DNA from: Hydractinia symbiolongicarpus
Taxonomy: Eukaryota > Cnidaria > Hydrozoa > Anthoathecata > Hydractiniidae
Assembly: GCF_029227915.1 (NCBI RefSeq)
Contig: NC_079875.1
Location: 9,917,001 to 9,981,000 of the forward strand
Length of the DNA stretch: 64,000 bases
Direction of reading: 5' to 3'
The notes under the pieces were generated by a model that did not search any database, had not been told where the DNA came from, and worked only from the letters and a program-made list of their open reading frames with translations. Numbering within the stretch: the first letter of the stretch is position 1; every line of letters begins with the position of its first letter. A program made the translations under genes and the position numbers. This document shows, piece by piece, positions 5,606-48,780 of this stretch.

Positions 5606-5756
5606 CTGCCAAAAGAGAAAAAATAATGTTTATAGTTTTCATTTTCATACCAGAGAGTATGGCTTGCTAAGTCTTTTCTAATTGTTTAAGAAGTGAAAAA
5701 TTTTATAGAAGTTCTCATAAGATACCAATATAACACAACAACAAACAAAAACTTAC

Positions 5757-7794
5757 ACCGCATACGCTTTGATGAATCATGACCATCATTGCAATGACTT
5801 CTTTTGCCATTCAGCAGACCTCTATCACGATATTCTGATGCCCTAGAAGTATCATAATCGCTGCTCGGAATGACAATTGGACAATCAATTGACGGATGAG
5901 TGTTTTGTATGTGCGAAATTGCAGCAGACGTTGGACTCATCATTGGACTTTGCCGTGACACGATCGTGGAGTTCGATTCGCTTATTGAGGAAGAATGAGA
6001 GAATTGTGTAGGACTTGGCTCACGAATTGCAGATGGATGAACAAATGACGTAGGGCTTTGAACTGTTTCATCATTGAATGAATTGCTCTGCGAGATTGGT
6101 GATTTTTCTGCTTTACTAGGCTTACCCTGAACACTTCCTGGAACCAAAGTTATTGGGACTAGGTATTTCACACGTAGAATTTTGTGTTTATTTCTTTCGG
6201 TCTCGTACATACTGATTAGTTTGTCGACATCCTCACGCGTGACATACGTACAAACTGTAGGCCTTTTGATCACATCCAAACGTCTCAGCTGGTGCAGTTG
6301 GGAGTAGGTGAATCGGTGTTTCATAATTCCTAACTTTCTAAAATGATAATCGAGTGAGGCGCTCTGTTCTTCCAAGAAGTCAACAATTTTATGAACATCT
6401 GGAACAGTAATTACAACTTTCTCATCCAGGCTAAACGTATGGATGACAACTTCTTCTTCCGTTCTATTTTCATCTCCATTACATGCTGATTCTGAAATAA
6501 CAGGTTTACAATCTAAGTTGATTGGTTCAGTCCAAGAAATTTGTTGCAGCTTTGGATCATCTACCAAACAATAGATTTGAAAGAGTTTCTCTGCATCAGC
6601 TCTCGGAACATATGTACAATAGGTGGCATTATTTTGCAAAACATTACGACTTTTTAGTTCCCGCAAGTGTGCGAAACAAAATCTCTTTTTTTGCACTCTT
6701 AATTTATTGAAATAGTAATTGACCTGAATGGAATTTCCATGTATACTCTGGACAATCTTATGAATATCCGGCATACAAACAACTTCATGTTTGTCGACAA
6801 TAAAAACATGAACAGTCATATCTTGAATATCCAAGCTAGCTTTTCTCTCTTCATCATCATCCTCACTAGCAGGTATGCTCTGATTTGATTTGTCAGAAAC
6901 GCTGGCAGGAGAAAAACATTCCTGTTTGGGACTGTTTATCATGCTTGGAGAATCTTCACTTTTCATATTTATTGAGACTGGTTTCCACGAGTGACTGGGT
7001 TGTTCGTTGAGCTGAATTTCCTCCAAAAAAATAACCTTTTCTTTAATAACATCTTGGCTCATACCATAAGCATCAAAAACTCGCATTGCATCAGTTTTTA
7101 ACACGTAAGTACAATGTACAGCTGATTTTTTTATAATACCTAGCTGTTTTATTTTATCTAAGTGTGAAGTGTGAATAAACTTGTACGGCACAATTCCAAG
7201 CTTAGTGAAGTAGTAACCTACAGTGGCACCTTGGTGGAAATGAGATTGAACAACTTTTTGAACATCTGGTGCACAAACAACTATGTCTCCACCAATCCTA
7301 AACAAATGCACTTTAACTGGACCGTCTGGTATTGTTGGCTTATTTGCAATTGCTTTTTTTGGCAAATCTGGAATAGGCTTTTCATCAAGTAAAACCGGAT
7401 CCATCCATTCAATAGATGCACTTTTTCTGCTGTCTCCACTTACATCAAAGCTATCAAATATATATTCTGCATCTTTCTGTAATATGTATGAACAAACTTT
7501 TGCTTCATGTCCCAGTATACCCAACATCTTAATTCGTATTAACTGTGCACCTGTGTAACGCCTGGAACTTATTCCGTTCTTAGACAAGTAATAATTAGCC
7601 TGCGATAATACCTGATACACATTCCGTAGCACTCTGTTCACCTCTGGCATACATACAACTATGTCTTTTCCAATTATAAGTGGATGTAGGATAACTGGGC
7701 CTCCAATGTCATTACTTGTTTGTTTTCCATAATACACAGGTCTTTCTGACTTTATGCTTGAACGGTGGTACGTTACAGGACTATGAACTTCCAT
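5757..7794 (-). CDS. Protein with four tandem SKI/SNO/DAC-like repeats (main exon)
   Basis: A 2038-nt exon encodes 679 residues plus one base (phase 1), ending at a GTAAGT donor (5756-5751). Four related ~80-residue units lie at about residues 36-117, 161-244, 327-408 and 450-531. Each shows the order hydrophobic strand, V-[VI]-C/T-[MAV]-P-[DE]-[VI]-x-[KR]-[VI], then Y-[YH]-[LF]-x-K, then L-[GR]-[IV]-[IVL], then C-[ST]-Y-V/I-x-[RK]-x-D-[AV]. This resembles the SKI/SNO/DAC fold of SKI, SnoN and Dachshund, known there for DNA or protein binding in transcriptional co-repression. I see it by pattern only. Repeats are linked by acidic or Ser/Pro-rich linkers. Residues 555-680 are Ser/Thr/Pro-rich with a KR-rich end that could be nuclear localisation. 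Downstream exons add a coiled coil. Known SKI-family proteins have one such domain, so four is unusual. A nuclear transcription regulator is likely, target unknown. Confidence 0.75.
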
Positions 7795-7815
7795 GTTTTG
7801 ATTGATTCTAAAAAA
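7795..7815 (-). promoter_or_regulatory. Splice acceptor 13 bases before the SKI-like start codon
   Basis: On the minus strand a T-run ending in AG (AG at 7809-7808) is followed by 13 bases and the ATG at 7794-7792. The 5' UTR is therefore interrupted by an intron, or is the site of spliced-leader addition. Confidence 0.45.
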
Positions 7816-9990
7816 AATACACCTATATTAATACACCTAAATTTAAAGCATTTAAAAAAATATGCTAATAATTAGAATTCATTAACAATATAAAGGGTAC
7901 ATATTTACATATATCATTGTTTACGGACCTGTCTGTGAAAGTTTGTAAAATGCTTACAGTAAATTTTATGATTAGAACTGGGTAAAAATGTTACTCACAG
8001 TGTCATTCCAAAGAATGGCGACAATAAAGTTATTGCATGAATATTTTAAACTGTTGAATCAATGTAGTTTTAAAAGACAGCAAATGCACAACTACAAATT
8101 TTGATAAAAAAAATGAATTTTCTCACGCCTCATCAAATTTTTGTTTGTCAGTAAGGTCAGCTCCATGAAGCATGACAAGTTATAGTTGTGATCTTAAATT
8201 TTAGGATTTCCACGCTTCTGATGCTACATTAAATAAACAAAAAAATTATCTATGCCTGGGAATGCAATGTTTTGTCTCTTCGCTTTATTTTACTGCCATT
8301 TTAATTTATAGATAAAACACTGATTTCAACCTGCACCCTGCTGCATATATGCCTTACAGACAAGATCTTAGCTCTGGGGTTGTAGATCCTGTTTTTATTA
8401 CATTAGCTGAGCAAGATAACACAAACAAAAAAACAACAGATTTGTGGAAGTGTGATAAAGAAATTGTGACGGCTTTAATCATCAAATCATCATGTTTTCT
8501 CAGGGGGAATTCTCAGATCCTGGTTAACATGCTTTACATTTTCTGATTTTTTTTAACCAAAATGAACAACATATTGGAATTTAGCACTAAAATCTATGAA
8601 AACATGCAAATTTTAAAATTTATACACCAACTGTGTCTATTTAGTAGCCAAACTTTTCTTTTTTCATGAGGAAATGACAACCCAAATCAACTGCAGTAAA
8701 AATGTTTTAAATATTCCGGGAGGTCAAAGGCTTATAAAATTTGAAAACTTTAAATTGCAATAAATCCTGTTCTAATAATATTTTGGTATTTCAAATTTCC
8801 TATGTTGCTAATAAATCCTAATATGTCACTCATTTTCCTCAAAAGTTCTTTGATTTCGTTTTCAAATTTTGATATAGTTAGCCCGGATAGTGTTGCATAA
8901 AAAATAGTCTATTACAGGGAAGAATTCTAAGACCCTTTCAAAACAAAAACAAATAAACAAACACACGAATAAACCATCATACAGACAAGCAAGTAAGTAA
9001 GCAAGCAAACAGGCAAGCAAACAAACAGACAAAACGTTGATGACAGTATAGCTAGCTATAGATACAAACAAAACTTCATTTTATGTCAAAATTGAAAGAG
9101 ATTAAATATCATAAAATCCTCGCCATCTCTCCTTATATATACATTTTAAAGATAAATGCAACCTGATGAAACACGGATACAAAAACCGTTGAAAAGTAAA
9201 AGCACGTGGTCACTACCAACGCTTTTTTTTGTAACCAAGACGCCATTACTAACAGGACCGCTGGATTAAGAAACTGGGATTATCGGAACATTAGGGAAAA
9301 GGCGAGCAGTGCGCGTGGCTGGTTGCGAACTTATCCATCGAATATATTAAAACTATTGATTGCAATAATAATTCTAAAACAAACTAACCACAGATATAAA
9401 GCAGTAAATAAAAATATTGATAAAATAATTATCGCTCTCTCGATTTGTCCGTCACAGTAGAATCATTACAATAATGTTTAAACATTTTTTTGCAACCATA
9501 AACTTTTGTCTTTATTTTGAACTATTATGTAAAATTATATATAGAAAATATGTTAATAACCTAAGAAAAATAGTAAAGTGGTAATAAATAAGGTTAAGAG
9601 AATTCAGGCTTTGATCAATACAAAACAATAATTTTATAAGACACATTAGATGTAACAATAAAAAATGATAATACGCGATAATCAATTATGTGTTTTCTCA
9701 CAACTTAACTTTTAAACCTTGTAGCTGTTTCTATCAGAATTAACCCCAAAATATCTTTCCTTGACATTAATATTACACTCCGATCAAGATACAAATTCTC
9801 TTAAGTAGAAAAGCAAATGATGGACCTCGTTACGCCATATAAATAAAATCGATATTCTTAAAATCAGTGAACCGTAAAACAACTGGAAGGAAGAAGAGGT
9901 AGAAAAGAGATGTAGGGTTGTGTACGAGGTTGTTTTCACCTTTAATGAACCGAAGCAAGCAATTTTGTAAATATGAAACGAAATGCAAAA
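7816..9990. other. Intergenic, no gene seen
   Basis: AT-rich sequence without a supported exon. A low-complexity run of AAGC/AAAC type (about 8942-9032) produces a spurious Leu/Cys-rich minus ORF. The SKI-like gene's promoter and possible noncoding first exon should lie just right of 7816 but have no visible landmark. Confidence 0.35.
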
Positions 9991-18668: not shown

Positions 18669-21446
18669 TTAGATCCCATCGTCCTGCAATAATAGACAGA
18701 TATAATGAAATTTCATAACAAGTGGTCACATTGGTTGTTTCTATATTAGAGTTGCGTATTTTAAACTTGCCAAAGTGCACTCCGGACTAGGATTTAGGAT
18801 CTTAATTATTTCGCTAGATCCATACTCTTGAAACATGCTAATTATTGGTGACGTGAGGACGACCATTATTCCTGAATTTCTGGGCCTTTATGGGCACCAA
18901 CGATGATCATTTTTTTATTGTGCAGGCGTGCTAAAAAATGCCAGTAGCAAATTTTGAAAGCTCTCTATCTGACCTGCGTGGGTGCAAAGTTCCTGGTATT
19001 GCCAGCTGCAGAGTATTGGCCATTGGATCTTTTTGGCCGTGTTTGAAAAAGGACGAAAAAATGCCCTTGTATCATTTATTTTTGTTAGCATTTTAGTTAC
19101 ATTCTGATGTTTTATTTTCAGCACCCTTTTAGTAAAAACATTTGTGTGTGATGCACAAAATGAGAAACTGAATTATTCCAATTAAACATTTAAGCAAAGG
19201 GAAATGAACTTAAATGTTCTGAATATAACTAAACAACACTTAACAAATCATAAAAAATCTTTGCAGTCAATTGTCATTAAATTAAACCATCTATAAATGA
19301 TCATCCATCCCCTATTAAACACTGTACTCCCAACCTACGCAGATTCTAATAGCGTTTCATATTAAAAACCAAAAAGTGGAAGTAAAAGAAGATTAAATTA
19401 AAATCAAATTAAAAAGAAAGAAAAGTAAATAAAAAATAAATAATAAATTGTCTAATTAAAAGTAAAATATATTAAATTAAAAAATTAAGAAAAAGAAAAT
19501 AAGGTTAGAAGCGAATAGAAAGCAAAAGTGAAATAAGTATATACAAAAAAGAAAAAATATATGATAAACATTAAAAGTCACTTCTCAGCCCTACCAAGAG
19601 TTTTCAACAAATTATATAAAAATCAAAACCGCACCCAAAAATCGATGTGATGAAAAATTTGTCCCTATGTCATTTTTTATTGCGTGCATGTTGCTTTTTA
19701 TGAAGCACAATATCTTTAAGATCATAGGTACTAGCTAACTTATTGATAAAAAATTTCAAAGTAAACTATTGACAGTTCTACTGTGACTCTATCAATTTTC
19801 AGCAAATCTCCCCCTTAACGTGAAGAAACATCTAAGATGAGCCTAAAATTATATTTCTTATAAAAAAATTATAAGTGTTTTAGGATACCCTGAGTATAGA
19901 ATGTAGTTTCCCTTTTTAGCATTTGATTTATTCGCCTGAGTTAATAACCAGTCAGAAAATCAAATTTTTTATCTGATTGGGAATTTGATCCTTAGCTATC
20001 TGAAATCATAGAGGGTTAAAAAACGTAACTGAACTTACGGGTGAGCTAGGCCACAATTCCTCCATAATTACTGGCTGTTGCTTTGTGAAAACGAAATTAA
20101 AATTCTTCTCTCTATTTAAAAGCTCCAATCGATAAATCTGCAATTCCTTTTTCAGTCGCGATATTTCATTGTCTCTCTAATAATTTAATTAATAATTTGA
20201 TACAAAATGATAGATTTACAAATGGTAAATATCAGGGACCGTCGACAAATAATGGCAAAATGGTCATTAGGTCTCCTTTAACATGTCAAGTTTTTCCATG
20301 AAGTTTCATCATGTTAAGGGGCATAAATAATACTTATATACAAACATGTCTTCTATTGCCATCTAGATTTCATTCATATTGGCACAGCACACAATCCGCT
20401 TTGAAAGATTTCATGTATGGCTTTTGGAATAGGAGCAGAGGGTGTAAACATTTTCGTCCCTAGACCTTCAATTTATGTGCATCTATTTATTTTATTTATT
20501 GAATAAAGGAAAGAATGAATTTTTTTTGCTTTTTAATCTTTTTATAATTTCCATGTAGTACCTGGTCCTGTATGTAAATTTTCATGACCCCCTGACCCCA
20601 TTTTGGCGTTAAGAGTGACAAAACCTATTTTTCGACAGCCTCTAAGCCACTTTAAGTAGTGAGGCTTCCCCTCAAATTGTCAAAAAATGTATATATTGTT
20701 CTTACCTCCTTTAAAATTGATTCATCTATGGCAGAGAATTTTGTTTGTCTTAGTTGTTTTCGGATTTCAAGGTTTTCTGACTCTAGTCGTTTGTATTTTT
20801 TAAGGTACTTATTCTCATCTTGAATATTTTTAATGCGAACTTTATTATAATCAATTTCTTGATCTAGGGTTTGAAGCTTTGTTTTCATTCGTGTGAGTTC
20901 TTTCTGAGATTCTTTTTCTATGTTATTCTTTACCTTTAGTTCAGTTTTCAATAATTTAACTTGTTCCTCATACTGATGAATATCTGTCTCATTACTGTTT
21001 TTAAGTTCATCTTCTGATTTCTCTGCTTCAAACTTACAGTTCTTTGCAGCTTCAATAGCTTTATTTAGCTGATTTAATGCTTGTTTTATAGCATCATTTT
21101 CAGAACCAGGTTGATCTAAAATTCCATCATTTGTTTCCACTAATGTAAGAAGCTGTTCATTTTTTTGGAGAAGAAAGTTCACATTTTTTGTTGATTCTTT
21201 TCTATCACCAACTGTAACTTTTTCATTTTCAATCCACTTTCTTTTTTCTTTTAAAGACTCTCGAACTCTTTCTAAGTGTATGCTAAACTTTTTCTTTAGT
21301 ATTTCTAAGTGCAGATCTGCATCACGTTTACCTTTTAAAAGTTTCTTAACTTGAATCGTTAATTCACATGCTTTGAACGATATTTTCTCAATTAGATCCG
21401 AAGAATAAGGGTCTTCTGCTTGGAAATTAGACACTTTACTTTCCAT
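18669..21446 (-). CDS. Coiled-coil protein, three-exon model
   Basis: Exon 1 is 21446-20706 (741 nt, 247 codons) and ends at GTAAGA. Exon 2 is 20176-20039 (138 nt, 46 codons) between a TTATTAG acceptor and a GTAAGT donor. The proposed last exon, 18683-18669, adds four residues and TAA after a TCTATTATTGCAG acceptor. All junctions are phase 0, giving about 297 residues. The protein is almost entirely Lys/Glu/Leu/Gln/Asn-rich helix with heptad spacing from about residue 25 to 275. The C-terminal stretch RDNEISRLKKELQIYRLELL followed by NREKNFNFVF looks like a conserved tail, as in centrosomal or ciliary coiled-coil proteins, but I cannot name the family. There is no signal peptide or membrane span. 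It is divergent from HINT2, with the 1.9-kb inverted-repeat element inserted between the two starts. Exons 1-2 are strong; the last exon is plausible. Confidence 0.65.
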
Positions 21447-21527: not shown

Positions 21528-21535
21528 TTTAGTTT
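21528..21535. repeat. Left target-site duplication TTTAGTTT
   Basis: Eight bases directly abut the left inverted repeat and match exactly the eight bases (23435-23442) abutting the right inverted repeat. Confidence 0.75.
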
Positions 21536-21787
21536 ACTAGGCATTAAAGACTGACTTTTCTCCGACCTTAAAAATTATAATTTTCGTCGCTCTCCGTTTT
21601 TCTCTCCTCCGTTATCATAATTTATTTCCCTCATACTATGCATGATATATATTATGCAGAACTATTGTACATAAATAATAAAACACGTTAAATATAACGT
21701 TCAATGTATATTTATAAAGTTAACAAAGTTTAAAGGTGAAGAAATAACACTAGTTTTAAAGGTATTCTCCTTCAACGTTTTTCAACA

Positions 21788-23110
21788 TTATTGTGACACT
21801 GACAGTACTTTTTCAGCTTCACTACAACACTCGCACCTCCATATCTCTTCACTTTTCTCGCTTTCAAAGTCGACACATTCCCTGAAATGATAAATGTTGT
21901 ATTCCACAATTTCAAGAATGTACTGCAAGCAGTGAGAAACTGAAGAGTCAACACTTACCAATGAAACCAAATGTTGCATCCGTCGCAAGCGATCATGTTG
22001 GTGTATTTTGGTTCCCTACATACCAGACAACTCCAATCATTTTTGAGCTCTTCCACTACGAATACAGGAAATTGATATCAAAATACTAGCACAATGCCAT
22101 GAAATTTTTGCATACTTCATATCACTCACCCTTCTTTCGCAAAATTTCCCATGCTTCGGTATCAAAGTATTTACGCAACCGTTCCGTCTCCATGTTAAGT
22201 ACATCGCCCTCCAACTCGAAATCATCGATGAAATCTTTTGGCATAAGTTCTTCATTCATTTGTGTTACTGCAGATTCCTTTAAACCAAGTCGCTTGAGCA
22301 TATTCTGTTCCACTAAAGTAAAAAGAAGTAAGTGCAAAAAGAGTTATGCAAATTCAAAAGTTCCTTCTTGTGAACAAACTCGTTTCCAGCTTCTTAGGTT
22401 TTTCCATCGTGTGCAATGAAAGAATACTTAAGAAGCTGGAAACGAGTTTGCCTTGTAAATTCATTGCAGTATAATAACTTTCCAAACCTTTTCCCGGTTG
22501 TTGCATCTTCTTCTTCACTTCTCGCTTTGTCTTCTTACAACTGTTCCTCTTCACCAGAACCTTTTTTTCTTTCTCACTTTCGACTTCTTTTTCATTTTTC
22601 TCACAACCATCCTCCTGAATTAGATTCTTTTTTTCTTTCTCACTCTTCACTTTTCTCTCTTCCTGCTTACAACTATCTTCCTTTGATAAAACCTTTTCTT
22701 CTTCACTTTTCAAGACCTTTTCCGTTTCATTCTTGTCATCTTCATTTCCCAGCGAAACCCACCATTCTCTCTCCATATCAAACATACTGCTCTTCTCTTC
22801 TGTCGATGGTTTAACCAAGCGTATGTTCTTCTCTTTCTTCTTCTTTTTCGTTGAATAAAAACGCCTTTGATAAAACCTTTTCTTCTTCACTTTTCAAGAC
22901 CTTTTCCGTTTCATTCTATATACAATAGAAAAAAACTGAATGGAAAAATTCAAGTTGTATACAAAAATGGCATAGGGAGTATGTTCAGGTTTCTTTTTTT
23001 TTTTCACCTTGTTAGAAAGTTTATTTCTGTTTGCAAACAGCATGATGTGCATCCCCATAAGTATTTAAACATAGTGTAAAAAACTTACCACTTGTTTCAT
23101 CAGTTTCCAT
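21788..23110 (-). CDS. PHD-finger protein, five exons, inside a TIR element
   Basis: Exons (minus strand): 23110-23089, 22799-22488, 22312-22130, 22055-21959, 21881-21788. Phases 1,1,1,2 fit exactly, giving 708 nt and 235 residues. Donors are GTAAGT, GTTTGG, GTGAGT and GTAAGT. Residues about 8-112 are very Lys/Glu-rich, with three repeats of the type C-[KE]-[QKE]-x(2,4)-[RKE]-x-[VE]-[KE]-SEKEK. The C-terminal ~50 residues form a full PHD finger: C-x2-C-x10-C-x2-C-x4-H-x2-C-x13-C-x2-C, with W two residues before the His, M before the second Cys pair and a Tyr upstream. PHD fingers with these aromatic positions often read H3K4me3, so a chromatin-reader role is inferred. The start is the only ATG that makes the phases work. 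The exon 2 acceptor (ATCGACAG) is the least certain. The whole gene lies between the element's inverted repeats. Confidence 0.7.
22375..22450. repeat. Hairpin MITE in an intron of the PHD gene
   Basis: Perfect 22-bp arms, CAAACTCGTTTCCAGCTTCT+TA and its reverse complement, are separated by 32 bases. The ends resemble the AACCTCGTCCCCAGGG family. It lies between exon 2 (ends 22488) and exon 3 (starts 22312). Confidence 0.75.
22683..22917. repeat. 53-bp direct duplication in the PHD gene
   Basis: CTTTGATAAAACCTTTTCTT and about 33 following bases at about 22683-22735 recur at about 22865-22917. The first copy is coding in exon 2; the second lies in the upstream intron. The ~180-bp spacing suggests replication slippage or a local rearrangement that could move the exon boundary. 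Confidence 0.6.
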
Positions 23111-23434
23111 ATCGTGAATGATAGTAGTCGATAAGTTAGTTCCCACAACGACGAAGAGAGAACGTGATTCATGTATAAGAAGTATAAAATATATAAAATA
23201 AATAAGTATAATAAATAAAAACGTCGTTAAAATCCAATGATTTCAATGCGTGATCGATATTGGATGATAAATTATAATAAACACTGTTTCGAAAAACGTT
23301 CCGAAAGCACAAACACTCTTCACTATCTTTTCCCGCGCGAAAACATATAATTATGCATGATGTAATTCAAAATATTAATTATACAATTTTATTTCTAATT
23401 AGGGTCGGAGAAAAGTCAGTCTTTAATGCCTAGT

Positions 23435-23442
23435 TTTAGTTT
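23435..23442. repeat. Right target-site duplication TTTAGTTT
   Basis: Exact match to 21528-21535 on the other side of the element. Confidence 0.75.
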
Positions 23443-23667: not shown

Positions 23668-23781
23668 ATGTCTCGTGTTGGACAAGTTGCAAAAAGGAGC
23701 CTTCGACTGCTAACTTACACAAGACTGTTTAGCGGAGAAGCATTCCTCAAAGCAGTTGGTTCCAGAAATATGACAACTGAG
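23668..23781 (+). CDS. HINT2: HINT2-like mitochondrial HIT protein, exon 1
   Basis: ATG at 23668 opens a 38-codon exon ending ...ACTGAG before a GTAATT donor at 23782 (phase 0). The 38 residues are rich in Arg, Leu, Ser and Thr with only two acidic residues (RLLTYTRLFSGEAF region). This is a typical mitochondrial presequence, which distinguishes HINT2 from cytosolic HINT1. The upstream frame is open to 23638, but ATG 23668 is the first Met. It joins exon 2 at 31053 across a 7.3-kb intron. Confidence 0.75.
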
Positions 23782-31052: not shown

Positions 31053-31448
<396 letters not shown>

Positions 31449-33910: not shown

Positions 33911-36900
33911 CTAAGTCTTCTTCTTGCGCTTCGGATTGATGATGACGTAACGCTCTGTAGTTTTTCTTTGTCGTTTCGGGTAGGTTTTTGCACCGTTCTT
34001 GTGGTTTTTCTTTTCGTATAGATCTTCTTCTTTGTTATGGCCATCATTCGGTTTAGATTGTTGGTTCTCATCAAAATTCGCATTGCTTGAGCAGGTACAA
34101 GGGTCTGCCCTGTTTCGCGCGTTAGAAACACTCGATTGCTTACCCTTCGCAGATCTATACAGTTTCGCGTGTCCGTTTGCTCGTAGAAACGTTTTTCCTT
34201 CCTTGTTTCGAACCATGATGCTTCGTTTGTATACTTTAATGATGGTGAAGACTTCCTTTAACCAGGGCGGTGAAAGTTTGTTTTTGTTGTCGGTAAGATT
34301 TTTCAACAATACCTTTTGTCCGACTTCAAAAGTGACAGTTTTTGCCTTGCGGTTCTGGTCGGTGTTTTCCTTGGATTTCTGTTTGTGCTTTTCATCATTC
34401 TTGTTTACTTCTATATCCAATTCACTGTTGCTTTTCACAAGTTGACTAACGTCAGGAAGATCATTCGTTAGCGGTCTACCGAACATCAGTGTTGCAGGTG
34501 GAACTTTAGTTACGGTATGAGGTGTGGTTCGGTAACTCAAAAGGAATGTGTCAAGAGTTTTACGCCAATCCTTTCCAGTGATGACAGCAGTTTGATTGTG
34601 TCGCTTCAATGTGCGGTTAAATCTCTCAACCTCACCATTAGCTTGTGGCCAGTATGGAGTTGTACGCCGGTGTTTTATACCATGTTGTTGAAGGTATCGG
34701 CTGAATTTGAAGGACGTGAATTGTGAACCGTTGTCAGTTACAATTGTTTTTGGATAACCAAAAATACTAAAGGTTCGCTTCATAACATTTATTATGTTTT
34801 GCACCCCAGTGTTCTTGATAGAAGAAACTATTGGGTATCTGGATCTGTAATCAATCAAAACTAACAGGTTGTCACCAGAGGGATAAGGGCCTTGAATGTC
34901 CATTGCAATAGTGTTCCAAGGTTGTTTGGGAATTTCTGTTGGTTGTGACGGTTCATGCCTGGTGGTGGAGGGTGCAGTTACTTGGCAGGCATGACAGGTA
35001 AGTGTTAGATCTTCGATTTGTTTGTTCATCAGCGGCCACCAAACTTTTTCACGTAATAGTAGTTTAGTTTTGGTTGTTCCTTGATGCGTAGCATGTGCTA
35101 TCTGCAACATTTTCTGTTGTAGAGTGCTTGGGATGACAATTCGTTGTCCTTTGAGTAAAATGTTATTCACAAAGGATAACTCATGCTTTGCATGTCTGTA
35201 TGGATTCAAAGCAGAATCTTTTGGCCAGGCCTTCGAGTTAATGGCTTTGGTGACTTTTTGAAGAATGATGTCTTTTGCAGTTTCATCTTGTATCTCTTCG
35301 ATATTGCAGCTTTTAGGTACTGCTTCTGCTGCTGTAAAGTTGATAAAGGATTCAATTGAGTCGTCAGTTTCTCCTTCACTGTCTGTACAAACAGGGTCTC
35401 TTGATAGTATGTCAGCAGCATTTTTGGCACCAGAAATGTATTTTAATTTGTAGTTATACCCTTGTATGCGAAGAAGCCATCTCTGGATCCTCGGTGGTGG
35501 AGATGTGGAAGTTGGTGACATTACGTGCAAAAGACTCTTGTGATCAGTGGTGATATCGAAGTCACGGTCATATATGAAAAAGTGAAAGTGTGTGCAGCCA
35601 AAGGCAACTGCAAGAGCTTCTCGTTCTGTTTGTGAGTATCTCTGTTCAACAGGTGTTAATGCTCTACTTCCATATGCTACCGGCTTGAAGTTTCCATCTT
35701 TCTGTTTCTGTGTAAGTATGGCACCAAGACCATACGGACTTGCATCAACAATTATGTCTGTTTCCGCCTCAGGATTGTAAAATGCCATAGTTTCAGAAGT
35801 GCAAAGTTTTTCTTTGAGTAAATCAAATGATTTCTGTTCAAGATCTGTCCATATGAATGGTGTATTTTTCTTGGTGAGTTTCCTCAGTGGAGCTGATAAT
35901 GTACTGTAGTCTTTGATGAACTGACTGCAATAATTTACTAGACCAAGAAAGGATCTGACTTCTGTCGATGTTGTTGGTGTTTTGAATTTGTTGACTGCAG
36001 TGACTTTGGAAGGGTCTGGAGATATGCCATCTGTTGTGAGAGTATATCCACTAAATAAAATTTTATTCTTGCTAAACTCACATTTTTCTGGGTTGACACG
36101 CAGGCCATTCTCAGAAAGATTACGAAGAACCTTATCGAGATTGCGGTCATGCTCAGCTTGTGTTTTTCCCCAGATAAAAATATCATCAGAGATGTTCTTT
36201 GCCCCTTCACAATCAGCAATTACCATTTCAATATTTTTCTGAAAATGTTCAAAGGCACTTGAAATACCATATATGAGACGCTTGTATCTGAAAATTCCTT
36301 TATGGGTAATGAAGGCAGTAATGTTTCTGCTTTCTTCGGCTAACTCAATTTGATGGTAGCCTTCTCGCAGGTCAATTTTTGAGAAGACAGTGGCTCCATT
36401 TAATAATGGTAGGATTTCTTCCAGTTTTGGAATAGGATGCTTCTCTCTGATAATGGCAGTGTTTGCTCTGCGCATGTCCACACACAATCTAATTTTGCCA
36501 TTTTTCTTAGGTACTGCGACAATTGGTGAAACCCACGAAGTTGGTCCATTGACTGGCTCAATGATATCTAATTTCAGCAGTCTATCGAGCTCTGCTTCAA
36601 CTTTCTTTCTGGTGTGAAACGGCAGTCTCCTAGTTGGTTGCTGGATGGGGGTGACATCTGGATCAATATGGAGTTTCTGTTTGAAGTTGTTAAGTTTTCC
36701 CATTCCTTTGAATACCTTGTTGTTTTTGTTGAGGACTTGTTCTGTTGATACTGGTATGCCTTTTGACAGACTTCTGCTACCTAACTGGAATGTTCTATGG
36801 TTGATGGGTGTTGTAGCTGGTCCAATTCGTAATAGATCTAGCTGCTCAGCTGTTTTGTGACCAAGTAAATTGCCTCCTTGACCAGGTATTACGTAGAATT

Positions 36901-38011
36901 TTGCTAGTATTTTATGGTGATTTGCTGCAACTGTAGCTTTGAAGGTACCAGTGATTGGGAGCTTCTTAGTAGCATTGTATGGGTAGATTCGGGCATTGGA
37001 TTTCTGAAGCTGGATGTTGCTGAATAAGCGTTTATAGGTTCGAAAATCGATGATATTTGTTGTGCTTCCAGAATCAATGATAGCAGTCATTTCGCTATTG
37101 TTTACTAGAACGGGGAAGTTATTTGACTTCGTAGTGTTCATCATGTATAGGTAGATATCCTCATCTTCGTCATCAGAGTTTTCATGGTTGGTTTGATGAA
37201 CTTGCTGTTTATTTTTGGTGCGGCACATTTTTGCAAAATGTCCTTTAATACCACATTTGTTACATGTTTTATCTCTTGATCTCCGACATTCATGACTTTT
37301 GTGGTTCTTCATACCACAGCGACCACATTCTGGTTTGTTGAATGATTTGGTTGGGTTGTTCCGATGTGGTGGTGCATTGTGTTTCCCATGGCTACGATGA
37401 GGTGGTCTACGCCCATGTAGTTTGTTGATTTGTTCAGAGCTTTCTTCTTCAGTGTCATGTTGTGTTTGTTTACCATTAGCTATTTCTTTGTTTTGGTGTT
37501 CTGCAGATTCAAAAAGTCGTCCAAGGTCCTGTGTTTTCTGGAGATTCAAATCAGTTTCCATAAGTAAACGTTTGCGGAATTTAATATTCGATGTTTTTGC
37601 TATGACCATGTCTCGGATTTCATTGTCAGTTTCTGATCCATATTCACAATATAAGGAAAGTTGTCGTAGACGGGTAATGAATTGATCCGTACTTTCCCCT
37701 ACTTGTTGTGAGGCTTGGTGAAATTTATGCCTTTCGAAAGGTATGTTCTTTTTGACTGAAAAATGTTCATCAAATTTATGGAGGGCTTCTTCAAATGTTG
37801 TTCCAGGATCAGAGAAAGTTTCAAATATTTCCTGGCATTTAGGTCCAATCATGTGGAGTAAAATTGCCCTCTTTCTTTCATCATCCCTAACTCCACTTGC
37901 TAGTATGTAGTATTTAAGACTGGTCTGCCATTTCGTCCATCGTTGACCAACTGAAGTCGGTTCTCCATTTGGGTCAAAGGGTGGTATGGCTGGAAGTTGC
38001 AAAACGGACAT
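33911..38011 (-). CDS. Gypsy Gag-Pol polyprotein
   Basis: One open frame of about 1366 codons from the first ATG (38011); the frame is open 12 codons further without an ATG. Order: Gag-like helical region (about 15-190); two zinc knuckles (about 241-275, the second C-x2-C-x4-H-x4-C); aspartic protease with DSGSTTN at about 325; reverse transcriptase with an ISDD active-site variant of YxDD; RNase H ending near an ADILSRD motif; integrase with an HHCC zinc finger (HATHQG... CHACQ), a DDE core (MDIQGP, VTDNGSQF, ANGEVERF), and a basic C-terminal tail. Gag and Pol share one frame, as in many Ty3/Gypsy elements of this type, and there is no envelope gene. It copies the element's RNA and inserts the cDNA. 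No stop or frameshift is present, so it may be active. Confidence 0.93.
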   Translation of the reverse strand: MSVLQLPAIPPFDPNGEPTSVGQRWTKWQTSLKYYILASGVRDDERKRAILLHMIGPKCQEIFETFSDPGTTFEEALHKFDEHFSVKKNIPFERHKFHQASQQVGESTDQFITRLRQLSLYCEYGSETDNEIRDMVIAKTSNIKFRKRLLMETDLNLQKTQDLGRLFESAEHQNKEIANGKQTQHDTEEESSEQINKLHGRRPPHRSHGKHNAPPHRNNPTKSFNKPECGRCGMKNHKSHECRRSRDKTCNKCGIKGHFAKMCRTKNKQQVHQTNHENSDDEDEDIYLYMMNTTKSNNFPVLVNNSEMTAIIDSGSTTNIIDFRTYKRLFSNIQLQKSNARIYPYNATKKLPITGTFKATVAANHHKILAKFYVIPGQGGNLLGHKTAEQLDLLRIGPATTPINHRTFQLGSRSLSKGIPVSTEQVLNKNNKVFKGMGKLNNFKQKLHIDPDVTPIQQPTRRLPFHTRKKVEAELDRLLKLDIIEPVNGPTSWVSPIVAVPKKNGKIRLCVDMRRANTAIIREKHPIPKLEEILPLLNGATVFSKIDLREGYHQIELAEESRNITAFITHKGIFRYKRLIYGISSAFEHFQKNIEMVIADCEGAKNISDDIFIWGKTQAEHDRNLDKVLRNLSENGLRVNPEKCEFSKNKILFSGYTLTTDGISPDPSKVTAVNKFKTPTTSTEVRSFLGLVNYCSQFIKDYSTLSAPLRKLTKKNTPFIWTDLEQKSFDLLKEKLCTSETMAFYNPEAETDIIVDASPYGLGAILTQKQKDGNFKPVAYGSRALTPVEQRYSQTEREALAVAFGCTHFHFFIYDRDFDITTDHKSLLHVMSPTSTSPPPRIQRWLLRIQGYNYKLKYISGAKNAADILSRDPVCTDSEGETDDSIESFINFTAAEAVPKSCNIEEIQDETAKDIILQKVTKAINSKAWPKDSALNPYRHAKHELSFVNNILLKGQRIVIPSTLQQKMLQIAHATHQGTTKTKLLLREKVWWPLMNKQIEDLTLTCHACQVTAPSTTRHEPSQPTEIPKQPWNTIAMDIQGPYPSGDNLLVLIDYRSRYPIVSSIKNTGVQNIINVMKRTFSIFGYPKTIVTDNGSQFTSFKFSRYLQQHGIKHRRTTPYWPQANGEVERFNRTLKRHNQTAVITGKDWRKTLDTFLLSYRTTPHTVTKVPPATLMFGRPLTNDLPDVSQLVKSNSELDIEVNKNDEKHKQKSKENTDQNRKAKTVTFEVGQKVLLKNLTDNKNKLSPPWLKEVFTIIKVYKRSIMVRNKEGKTFLRANGHAKLYRSAKGKQSSVSNARNRADPCTCSSNANFDENQQSKPNDGHNKEEDLYEKKNHKNGAKTYPKRQRKTTERYVIINPKRKKKT

Positions 38012-38224
38012 GCTAGCTGCACAGAAATGCTCAGAGCGCGCGCACAAGTATAACTATCGCTTGAAATTACAAAGGACAGCCTAGCAAAGTTTCCTTTCGC
38101 ACAGTAAGAGTCAACAAAATTTGTTGTTTTGATTCGAAAATTCACACGTCTTGTTTCACGCGAGATTGCTTTGTAATTATGAAATATACCTCTCCATGAG
38201 TTCTTGGAATCCTCGTCGCCAATT

Positions 38225-48194: not shown

Positions 48195-48761
48195 TTACAA
48201 TTCTCCATTGTCAATGAGTTTGTTGAGGGCGTTGACGATATTTTCAAGAAACGGCCGGTAGGAGCTGTCTGGTAAGAAAAGCTTATCTAACACTTTCGGG
48301 TCGGAATAAAACGAATACACGTTATCGATCCGCTTCAACGATTTATCCGTTAGATGATTTTTCACGGACAGTTCGAGGAGTTCTCTCGACTCATTCAAAA
48401 TTTTAATCATGTACTCGCCGTCGAAGGTAAAGTCCACTTCATAAAAACTAATTATCGTAATGGCTAGAGTTTTGAATTTTTTCTGAAAGTTCTGCAGATG
48501 CGTTATCTCCTCCTTGGTGAACATATTGTTTCGAGACAATATGGCCACCTTAACGACAAGTTTTATCATGTTCTTCATTATTTTCTCCGCGTCTTTCTTA
48601 CTCTCCAAATAAGTCTTGGCGATTTTGTAGCAGTTATCAATCAGATCGGACGTCGGTCCATCCACGACTTGTTTGGCTAAGCCCTTTGTAGACATCTTGC
48701 TGGCAATCTTGCCCTGTATACGTATTCCCAACGACTTAGAAGGGGCGTCATCGTCGGCCAT
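48195..48761 (-). CDS. TNFAIP8 / TIPE family protein
   Basis: 188 residues in one coding exon, close to the usual 185-200 of the family. After a short acidic N-terminus, an all-helical TIPE domain fills the rest. Family-typical blocks are SKMSTKGLAKQVVDGPTSD, SKKDAEKIMKNMIKLVVKVA (matching the KKEAEKIIKN-type helix), AILSRNNMF, FKTLAITIISFYEVDFTFD, and a C-terminal FLENIVNALNKL helix. TIPE proteins fold as a helical bundle with a deep hydrophobic cavity that carries phosphoinositides and diacyl lipids. In animals they tune immune signalling, cell survival and directed migration. No membrane span or signal peptide is seen. The ATG is preceded by a splice acceptor (TTTATTTAG) three bases upstream, so the 5' UTR is split or trans-spliced. 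Which vertebrate paralogue it matches cannot be decided here. Confidence 0.92.
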   Translation of the reverse strand: MADDDAPSKSLGIRIQGKIASKMSTKGLAKQVVDGPTSDLIDNCYKIAKTYLESKKDAEKIMKNMIKLVVKVAILSRNNMFTKEEITHLQNFQKKFKTLAITIISFYEVDFTFDGEYMIKILNESRELLELSVKNHLTDKSLKRIDNVYSFYSDPKVLDKLFLPDSSYRPFLENIVNALNKLIDNGEL

Positions 48762-48780
48762 ACCCTAAATAAACACAAAC
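48762..48780 (-). promoter_or_regulatory. Splice acceptor three bases before the TIPE start
   Basis: Minus strand TTTATTTAG then GGT then ATG (48761). Confidence 0.5.

Follow-up and report, generated by a model that had tools for sequence, protein, structure and literature searches.

A SWIM zinc finger is common, though not universal, in MULEs. Ac/Ds derivatives combine intact ends with varied internal losses of sequence, interrupted post-excision gap repair in P and Ac/Ds elements is expected to leave templated filler DNA at deletions, and RAGL transposons produce target-site duplications (TSDs) of 5 bp. The part of a survey of MULEs available to us gives terminal inverted repeats (TIRs) of 14–500 bp and describes Rehavkus as MULE-related, with a PHD finger in its transposase, TIRs and a 9-bp TSD (PMC6446971). 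Its Table 1 lists a PHD finger for Rehavkus alone, and the combination of MULE and PHD finger is therefore uncommon in the surveyed material, as far as this part of the survey goes. The literature searched, a limited selection seen in part, did not describe any MULE with a PHD finger from Hydractinia.

Here we analyse a window of 64,000 nucleotides from the Hydractinia symbiolongicarpus genome that holds a short TIR element with a PHD-finger gene. Judged by comparison with its relatives, the window copy is very probably a non-autonomous, internally deleted copy of a MULE (MULE/ZSWIM type) with a PHD finger at the end of its transposase gene. MULEs of the ZSWIM/SWIM type are matched in the TIRs of tens of bp, the TSDs of 8–9 bp, and the C2H2 and SWIM-like motifs of relatives, as well as in the PF21056 core of the relative on C15 and the PF10551 and PF21056 domains of the relative L066; unlike them, the gene carries a PHD finger at its 3′ end and the window copy lacks a transposase core. 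Rehavkus, as the available part of the survey describes it, shares the MULE relationship, the TIRs, a PHD finger (within the transposase in Rehavkus, at the 3′ end of the gene here) and, with C15, the 9-bp TSD, but the window family has an 8-bp TSD and a cnidarian host, and this comparison is one of descriptions and not of transposase sequences. No minisatellite of the Rehavkus type precedes the 3′ TIR in C8 or in C15 downstream of the latter's 5′ 215 bp; C8 holds a 66-bp array of 2.2 units, which is coding. P elements, in the section of PMC7776569 available to us, likewise combine intact ends with varied internal deletions, but no THAP domain was seen here, and Ac/Ds derivatives differ in that no hAT domain was seen here. 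The RAG2-like proteins of RAGL transposons, in the excerpt of PMC7204232 available to us, also provide a transposon-encoded PHD finger, but Pfam scans here found no kelch domain, nor was there a RAG1-like core.

Results

The element occupies 1899 bp of contig C1. Its inverted ends, ACTAGGCATTAAAGACTG in the window family, lie at 21536..21567 (plus strand) and 23403..23434 (minus strand) and pair perfectly over 32 bp and at 97% over 36 bp. They are flanked at 21528..21535 and 23435..23442 by exact copies of the 8-bp sequence TTTAGTTT. A preliminary description of this DNA had placed identical ends of ~32 bp and an exact 8-bp duplication at precisely these positions, and both are confirmed. A 19-base stretch from within the TIR, searched with a tolerance of three mismatches, occurs twice in the window, where 0 occurrences are expected from 100 shuffles. 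A scan of the window for exact 12-bp inverted seeds at most 6 kb apart and accompanied by a flanking duplication revealed no second element of this kind.

The 32-bp TIR was searched at up to three mismatches, leaving more diverged ends outside its reach, against the assembly of 480.9 Mb in 76 contigs. Four forward and four reverse matches were obtained, compared with 0 and 0 for the backward control. This and an element search define four elements, namely the window copy, C8 (2427 bp), C12b (1417 bp) and C12a (1542 bp, with one mismatch in one TIR), and the three loci outside the window each have an 8-bp duplication of their own. All four duplications are exact and all are different (TTTAGTTT, TCAACGGG, CAAATTGA and GATATTTG), and the copies are 99–100% alike in their shared parts, differing by a few substitutions and small indels. 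Private duplications around such similar copies indicate that the element is mobile and moved recently; the mobility claimed earlier is thus upheld by four copies, four different duplications and eight ends, with 0 control matches. The PHD exons are kept in three of the four copies and are absent from C12a. As had been noted for the window element, which lacks a MULE-type core, no transposase core was seen in any of the four copies, and no full-length copy with window-family ends was found in the assembly.

The gene in the window copy corresponds to P0001, an NCBI prediction from Hydractinia symbiolongicarpus of 223 aa that is 100% identical over the searched part and carries the name 'transcription initiation factor TFIID subunit 3-like'. 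Its four minus-strand exons total 672 nt (223 codons and a stop): a lysine/glutamate-rich first coding exon (22785-22488, ATG at 22785, MFDMEREWW...QQPGK), an exon 5′ of the PHD finger (22312-22130, VEQNMLKRLGLKE...), and two exons with the first half (22055-21959, CLVC...CDGCNIWFHW) and second half (21881-21788, stop at 21788–21790) of the finger. P0001 has M at a residue where C8 and C12b have T, and hence derives from the window copy. The PHD finger matches PF00628 (E 2.6e-6, 27.8 bits with a cut-off of 24), and the closest solved structure is the PHD finger of TAF3 (E 1.6e-6). Directly 5′ of the P0001 start, the window copy and C8 encode a basic linker, QRRFYSTKKKKKEKNIRLVKPSTEEKS, situated in the window at approximately 22790..22869 on the minus strand. 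Further upstream, at 23089..23110 (minus strand), lies the remnant of an exon 1 (METDETSG) that is recognized from the splicing of C12a and is separated by a deletion from its next exons. An intron of the PHD gene contains a 28-bp inverted repeat pair (22375..22450) that forms a hairpin; the assembly search found stretches 78–80% similar to it at C9:21425528 (both strands) and C7:22320608, and a small nested repeat may accordingly sit inside the window element.

An intact five-exon gene of 235 residues with perfectly closing phases had been proposed for this locus. The PHD finger is real, but the intact gene does not stand, its intron 1 spanning the deletion. As many as 206 in-frame GT/GC-AG chains end on the same 3′ exons, so that closing phases are weak evidence, and the 235-residue gene is probably the chain that joins exon 1 (23110-23089) to an acceptor at 22799. 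Since DNA was lost between exon 1 and exon 2, this junction, if used, is a by-product of the deletion. The window gene is a truncated remnant.

The four copies look like internal-deletion derivatives with different breakpoints. Compared with C8, the window copy lacks positions 523–1093 of C8 (571 bp) and has a 54-bp filler in their place (22864..22917, minus strand), identified by self-comparison of the window as a perfect copy of 22680..22733 (minus strand) within exon 2. The last 6 bp of the filler, CAAAGG, provide microhomology with the right-hand part at the right junction, and the filler may be read as the scar of an interrupted gap repair. About 1 kb is missing from C12b. C12a lacks the stretch holding the PHD exons and has 424 bp that are absent from the other three copies and are, at the DNA level, unique in the assembly. 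Its upstream exons are kept: exon 1 splices coherently to four other exons, and exons 1–5, with GT-AG borders and coherent phases, encode 159 aa, the last exon reaching the breakpoint.

Diverged relatives of the family were found with protein-level comparisons. The frame of exon 5 of C12a matches seven further places at E<=1. For the PHD end, with 150 of 711 candidates scored, at least 149 matches were obtained, of which nine are exons of three window-family copies and the other 140 are mostly weak. Three places on C13 combine a match to the N-terminal part with a PHD match on the same strand, 0.8–2.8 kb away; two of these places are near-identical duplicates (99.8% over 1315 bp, with the same flank) and the three thus count as two independent cases. 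The N-terminal part is 25–32% identical between the window family and its relatives over most of its length. A ZPR1 match to this part (PDB, E 0.011) was rejected as likely due to chance via an acidic stretch. Upstream exon and PHD exon therefore co-occur on one strand in diverged relatives. Eight relative loci were fetched, and one of them, L057, is homologous at the DNA level to all seven others. Two loci, L063 and L062, show both ends and could be assessed for a TSD, and in L062 the duplication matches at 8/9 positions.

The locus on C15 (L063) is the longest relative and spans 5691 bp. Its TIRs, ACATGCCGTTAAATACCGCAGCTGCTCCGACC, have one and zero mismatches, and a 9-bp duplication, TCTATGGTA, was read by eye from the flanks. 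Ungapped, its TIR is identical to that of the window at 21 of 32 positions, a value reached by 0 of 20,000 shuffles (maximum 18). C15 and the window family also share the linker (E 5.7e-9, 41.8% identity) and the PHD region (E 1.5e-12, 26/54 identical). A C2H2 motif (19.4 bits, below the cut-off), an RNaseH-like core of the PF21056 family (ZSWIM1-3; 30.2 bits with a cut-off of 27.2) and, later, ZSWIM1-3_helical (17.9 bits, below the cut-off) follow each other on one strand. The linker comes after a SWIM-like region, and the linker and a PHD piece of two manually joined exons (PF00628, 39.3 bits) lie downstream of the ZSWIM/MULE core. At least two frame changes indicate that the C15 copy is broken, and this architecture is read from separate open pieces. 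The candidate DDE pieces CDSTNG, MSDLAP and VEAFH are in different frames or exons, as are, in different frames, the CxC and CxH of the SWIM-like motif. The Pfam scan gave no PF10551 match in C15 and no SWIM match in C15 or in the joined pieces scanned, and the ULP1-like piece at 875–1237 had no Pfam match and reached E 3.3 to the ULP1 region of protein P0013. Pieces of a further related core on C4 are 67–77% identical.

An intact frame is available in L066, whose 653-aa product is a relative of the core (28% identical) with MULE PF10551 (E 4.4e-13), PF21056 and C2H2. No PHD finger was seen in L066, where the fetched stretch ends soon after a SWIM-like motif. A protein search with residues 250–653 returned 51 proteins at E<=1e-10, among them proteins of Hydra, Penaeus, amphioxus and insects, and PF10551 or PF21056 is listed for 45 of the 51. 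These matches, P0001 and the L066 frame form the set of 53 compared proteins. Two RNaseH pieces of C15 each match 47 of the 53 at E<=0.01, with P0043 as the best match (46% and 42%), and the CxC piece matches 11. The C15 pieces CDSTNG and VEAFH align to CIDGTH and VESFH of L066, and the MSDLAP piece matches five proteins.

A further connection comes from the linker, which recurs close to the C-terminal end of P0043 (60% over 35 aa, E 4e-10; score 112 compared with a maximum of 56 in 1000 shuffles). P0043 has MULE and ZSWIM domains. Being common to the window and P0043, the linker connects the window element with a transposase of the MULE type independently of the TIRs. In the 51 MULE-type proteins the N-terminal part was not found (best E 0.42), blastp found the PHD end only weakly (P0013, E 0.022; P0040, E 0.17), and PF00628 and PF13831 are named in no precomputed Pfam entry. 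A pattern scan of the compared proteins found one PHD-like end, that of P0013, a single protein of 1060 aa with a MULE core, ULP1 and a weak C-terminal PHD finger (18.5 bits with a cut-off of 24). When the PHD end was used as a protein query (50 and 40 candidates of 0.55–1.75 times the query length), P0001 alone was returned, a result that because of this size range does not bear on long transposases.

In the window family, TIRs of 32–36 bp and TSDs of 8 bp in 4/4 copies agree with MULEs (TSD range 8–11 bp), and the MULE core was found in C15 as PF21056 and not in the window copy. The Pfam families of hAT (BED and hAT dimerisation), THAP and KDZ had no match in the pieces scanned, a result that stands on the relatives because the window family's own core is missing. 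As no core occurs with the window's ends and the 424-bp segment occurs once, the link to a transposase likewise rests on the diverged relatives. A core together with a related TIR was found in the diverged and broken C15 copy, and not in an element with the window's own ends.

The window copy is inserted between two divergent frames, one starting at 21446 on the minus strand, the other with its ATG at 23668 on the plus strand; the latter we infer to be exon 1 of a HIT-domain gene (31053-31448). By eye, C8 and C12b lie among transposon-like frames, and no long frame is near C12a; with 1/4 insertions between divergent frames and 2/4 among transposon-like frames, the copies are too few to judge a promoter preference. 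Beside the C8 copy, pogo/Tigger-type transposase-like frames (L009:1740-3394) have a PHD-like C-terminal motif by eye; PHD ends have perhaps been added to transposases more than once. The C8 insertion is also adjoined by Polinton-like frames, by eye a packaging ATPase and a capsid-like protein (L009:7624-9826). Elsewhere in the window, all on the minus strand, are a 713-aa frame with four Ski/Sno/Dac Dachshund-homology stretches (5686-7827, E 4.9e-31), a repeat that seems unusual, a 1380-aa frame resembling by eye a Ty3/gypsy-type polyprotein (33911-38053), and a TNFAIP8-family gene (48195-48764, E 3.8e-65).

Discussion

The window PHD gene is most likely a remnant of the family's transposase gene, as suggested by the position of the PHD exon in the relatives. 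The preliminary description had offered two readings, gene capture and a new element class with a PHD protein in the transposition machinery. Under gene capture, a non-autonomous Pack-type element would carry a host TAF3-like PHD gene as cargo, and the NCBI name of the protein, the TAF3 PHD finger as best solved-structure match and the lack of a transposase in the window copy would all fit. We consider this very unlikely and reject it as the main reading, since diverged family members have the PHD exon next to the same upstream exon, and in C15 it lies downstream of the ZSWIM/MULE core and the linker. Nor was a close donor seen: with 150 of 711 candidates scored, the best places other than the window family and the fetched relatives are 28% identical (E 1.6e-6 and weaker), and short, weaker matches reach 46%. 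A new element class is not borne out either, the relatives with a ZSWIM/MULE core identifying the element as a MULE variant. An assignment to hAT, P or Zisupton would be compatible with the 8-bp TSD, which Zisupton shares in the part of PMC12730594 available to us, and with a TIR length near the 31 bp given for P elements in the available section of PMC7776569; it is extremely improbable given that the relatives encode ZSWIM/MULE RNaseH domains, that the scans gave no Pfam match to hAT, THAP or KDZ families, and that the TSD of C15 is 9 bp.

That a PHD protein takes part in transposition holds to the extent that the PHD finger is most likely the C-terminal part of the transposase gene; that finger and core form one fused protein is what we infer. 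They could instead belong to two genes of one element, a transposase gene and a separate PHD gene on the same strand that acts as an accessory, as RAG2-like PHD proteins would illustrate (excerpt of PMC7204232). In C15 the N-terminal part, core and PHD pieces are indeed separate open frames, but strand and order are common to all pieces, the linker found 5′ of the PHD finger in the window sits close to the C-terminal end of P0043, which carries a MULE core, and P0013 joins MULE core, ULP1 and a weak C-terminal PHD finger in a single chain. A two-gene element is thus unlikely. On the favoured reading, in which the copies derive from a MULE with a PHD finger at the end of its transposase gene, their deletions would have arisen when gap repair after excision was interrupted, as in P and Ac/Ds elements. 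Mobilization of the deleted copies would then depend on a transposase supplied in trans, either by a diverged relative or by an element missing from this assembly. Through the PHD finger, the full-length transposase, or a truncated PHD protein, would contact histone H3 tails.

The available part of PMC12238850 names D877, M882, W868 and W891 as cage residues of TAF3. In our alignments the window and C15 both retain the two Trp and the Met, with a Lys at the position of the Asp; from these residues, and with TAF3 as that source describes it, binding of H3K4me3 appears possible. More speculatively, a MULE lineage may have acquired, as part of its transposase, an H3K4me3 reader resembling that of TAF3 with which active promoters are chosen or sensed, in parallel to the PHD finger of RAG2 but independently of it, and deletion derivatives such as the window copy might produce proteins consisting of the PHD finger alone that compete with the full-length transposase and reduce its activity, a scenario that we regard as decidedly unlikely.

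For annotation, the finding is a warning, as the gene that NCBI names 'TFIID subunit 3-like' is here most likely a transposon remnant. Should the PHD finger be functional, a Mutator-type transposase would be directly tied to a histone mark, target choice by chromatin reading would become testable in a cnidarian, and the family would be a third counterpart beside RAG2 and Rehavkus.
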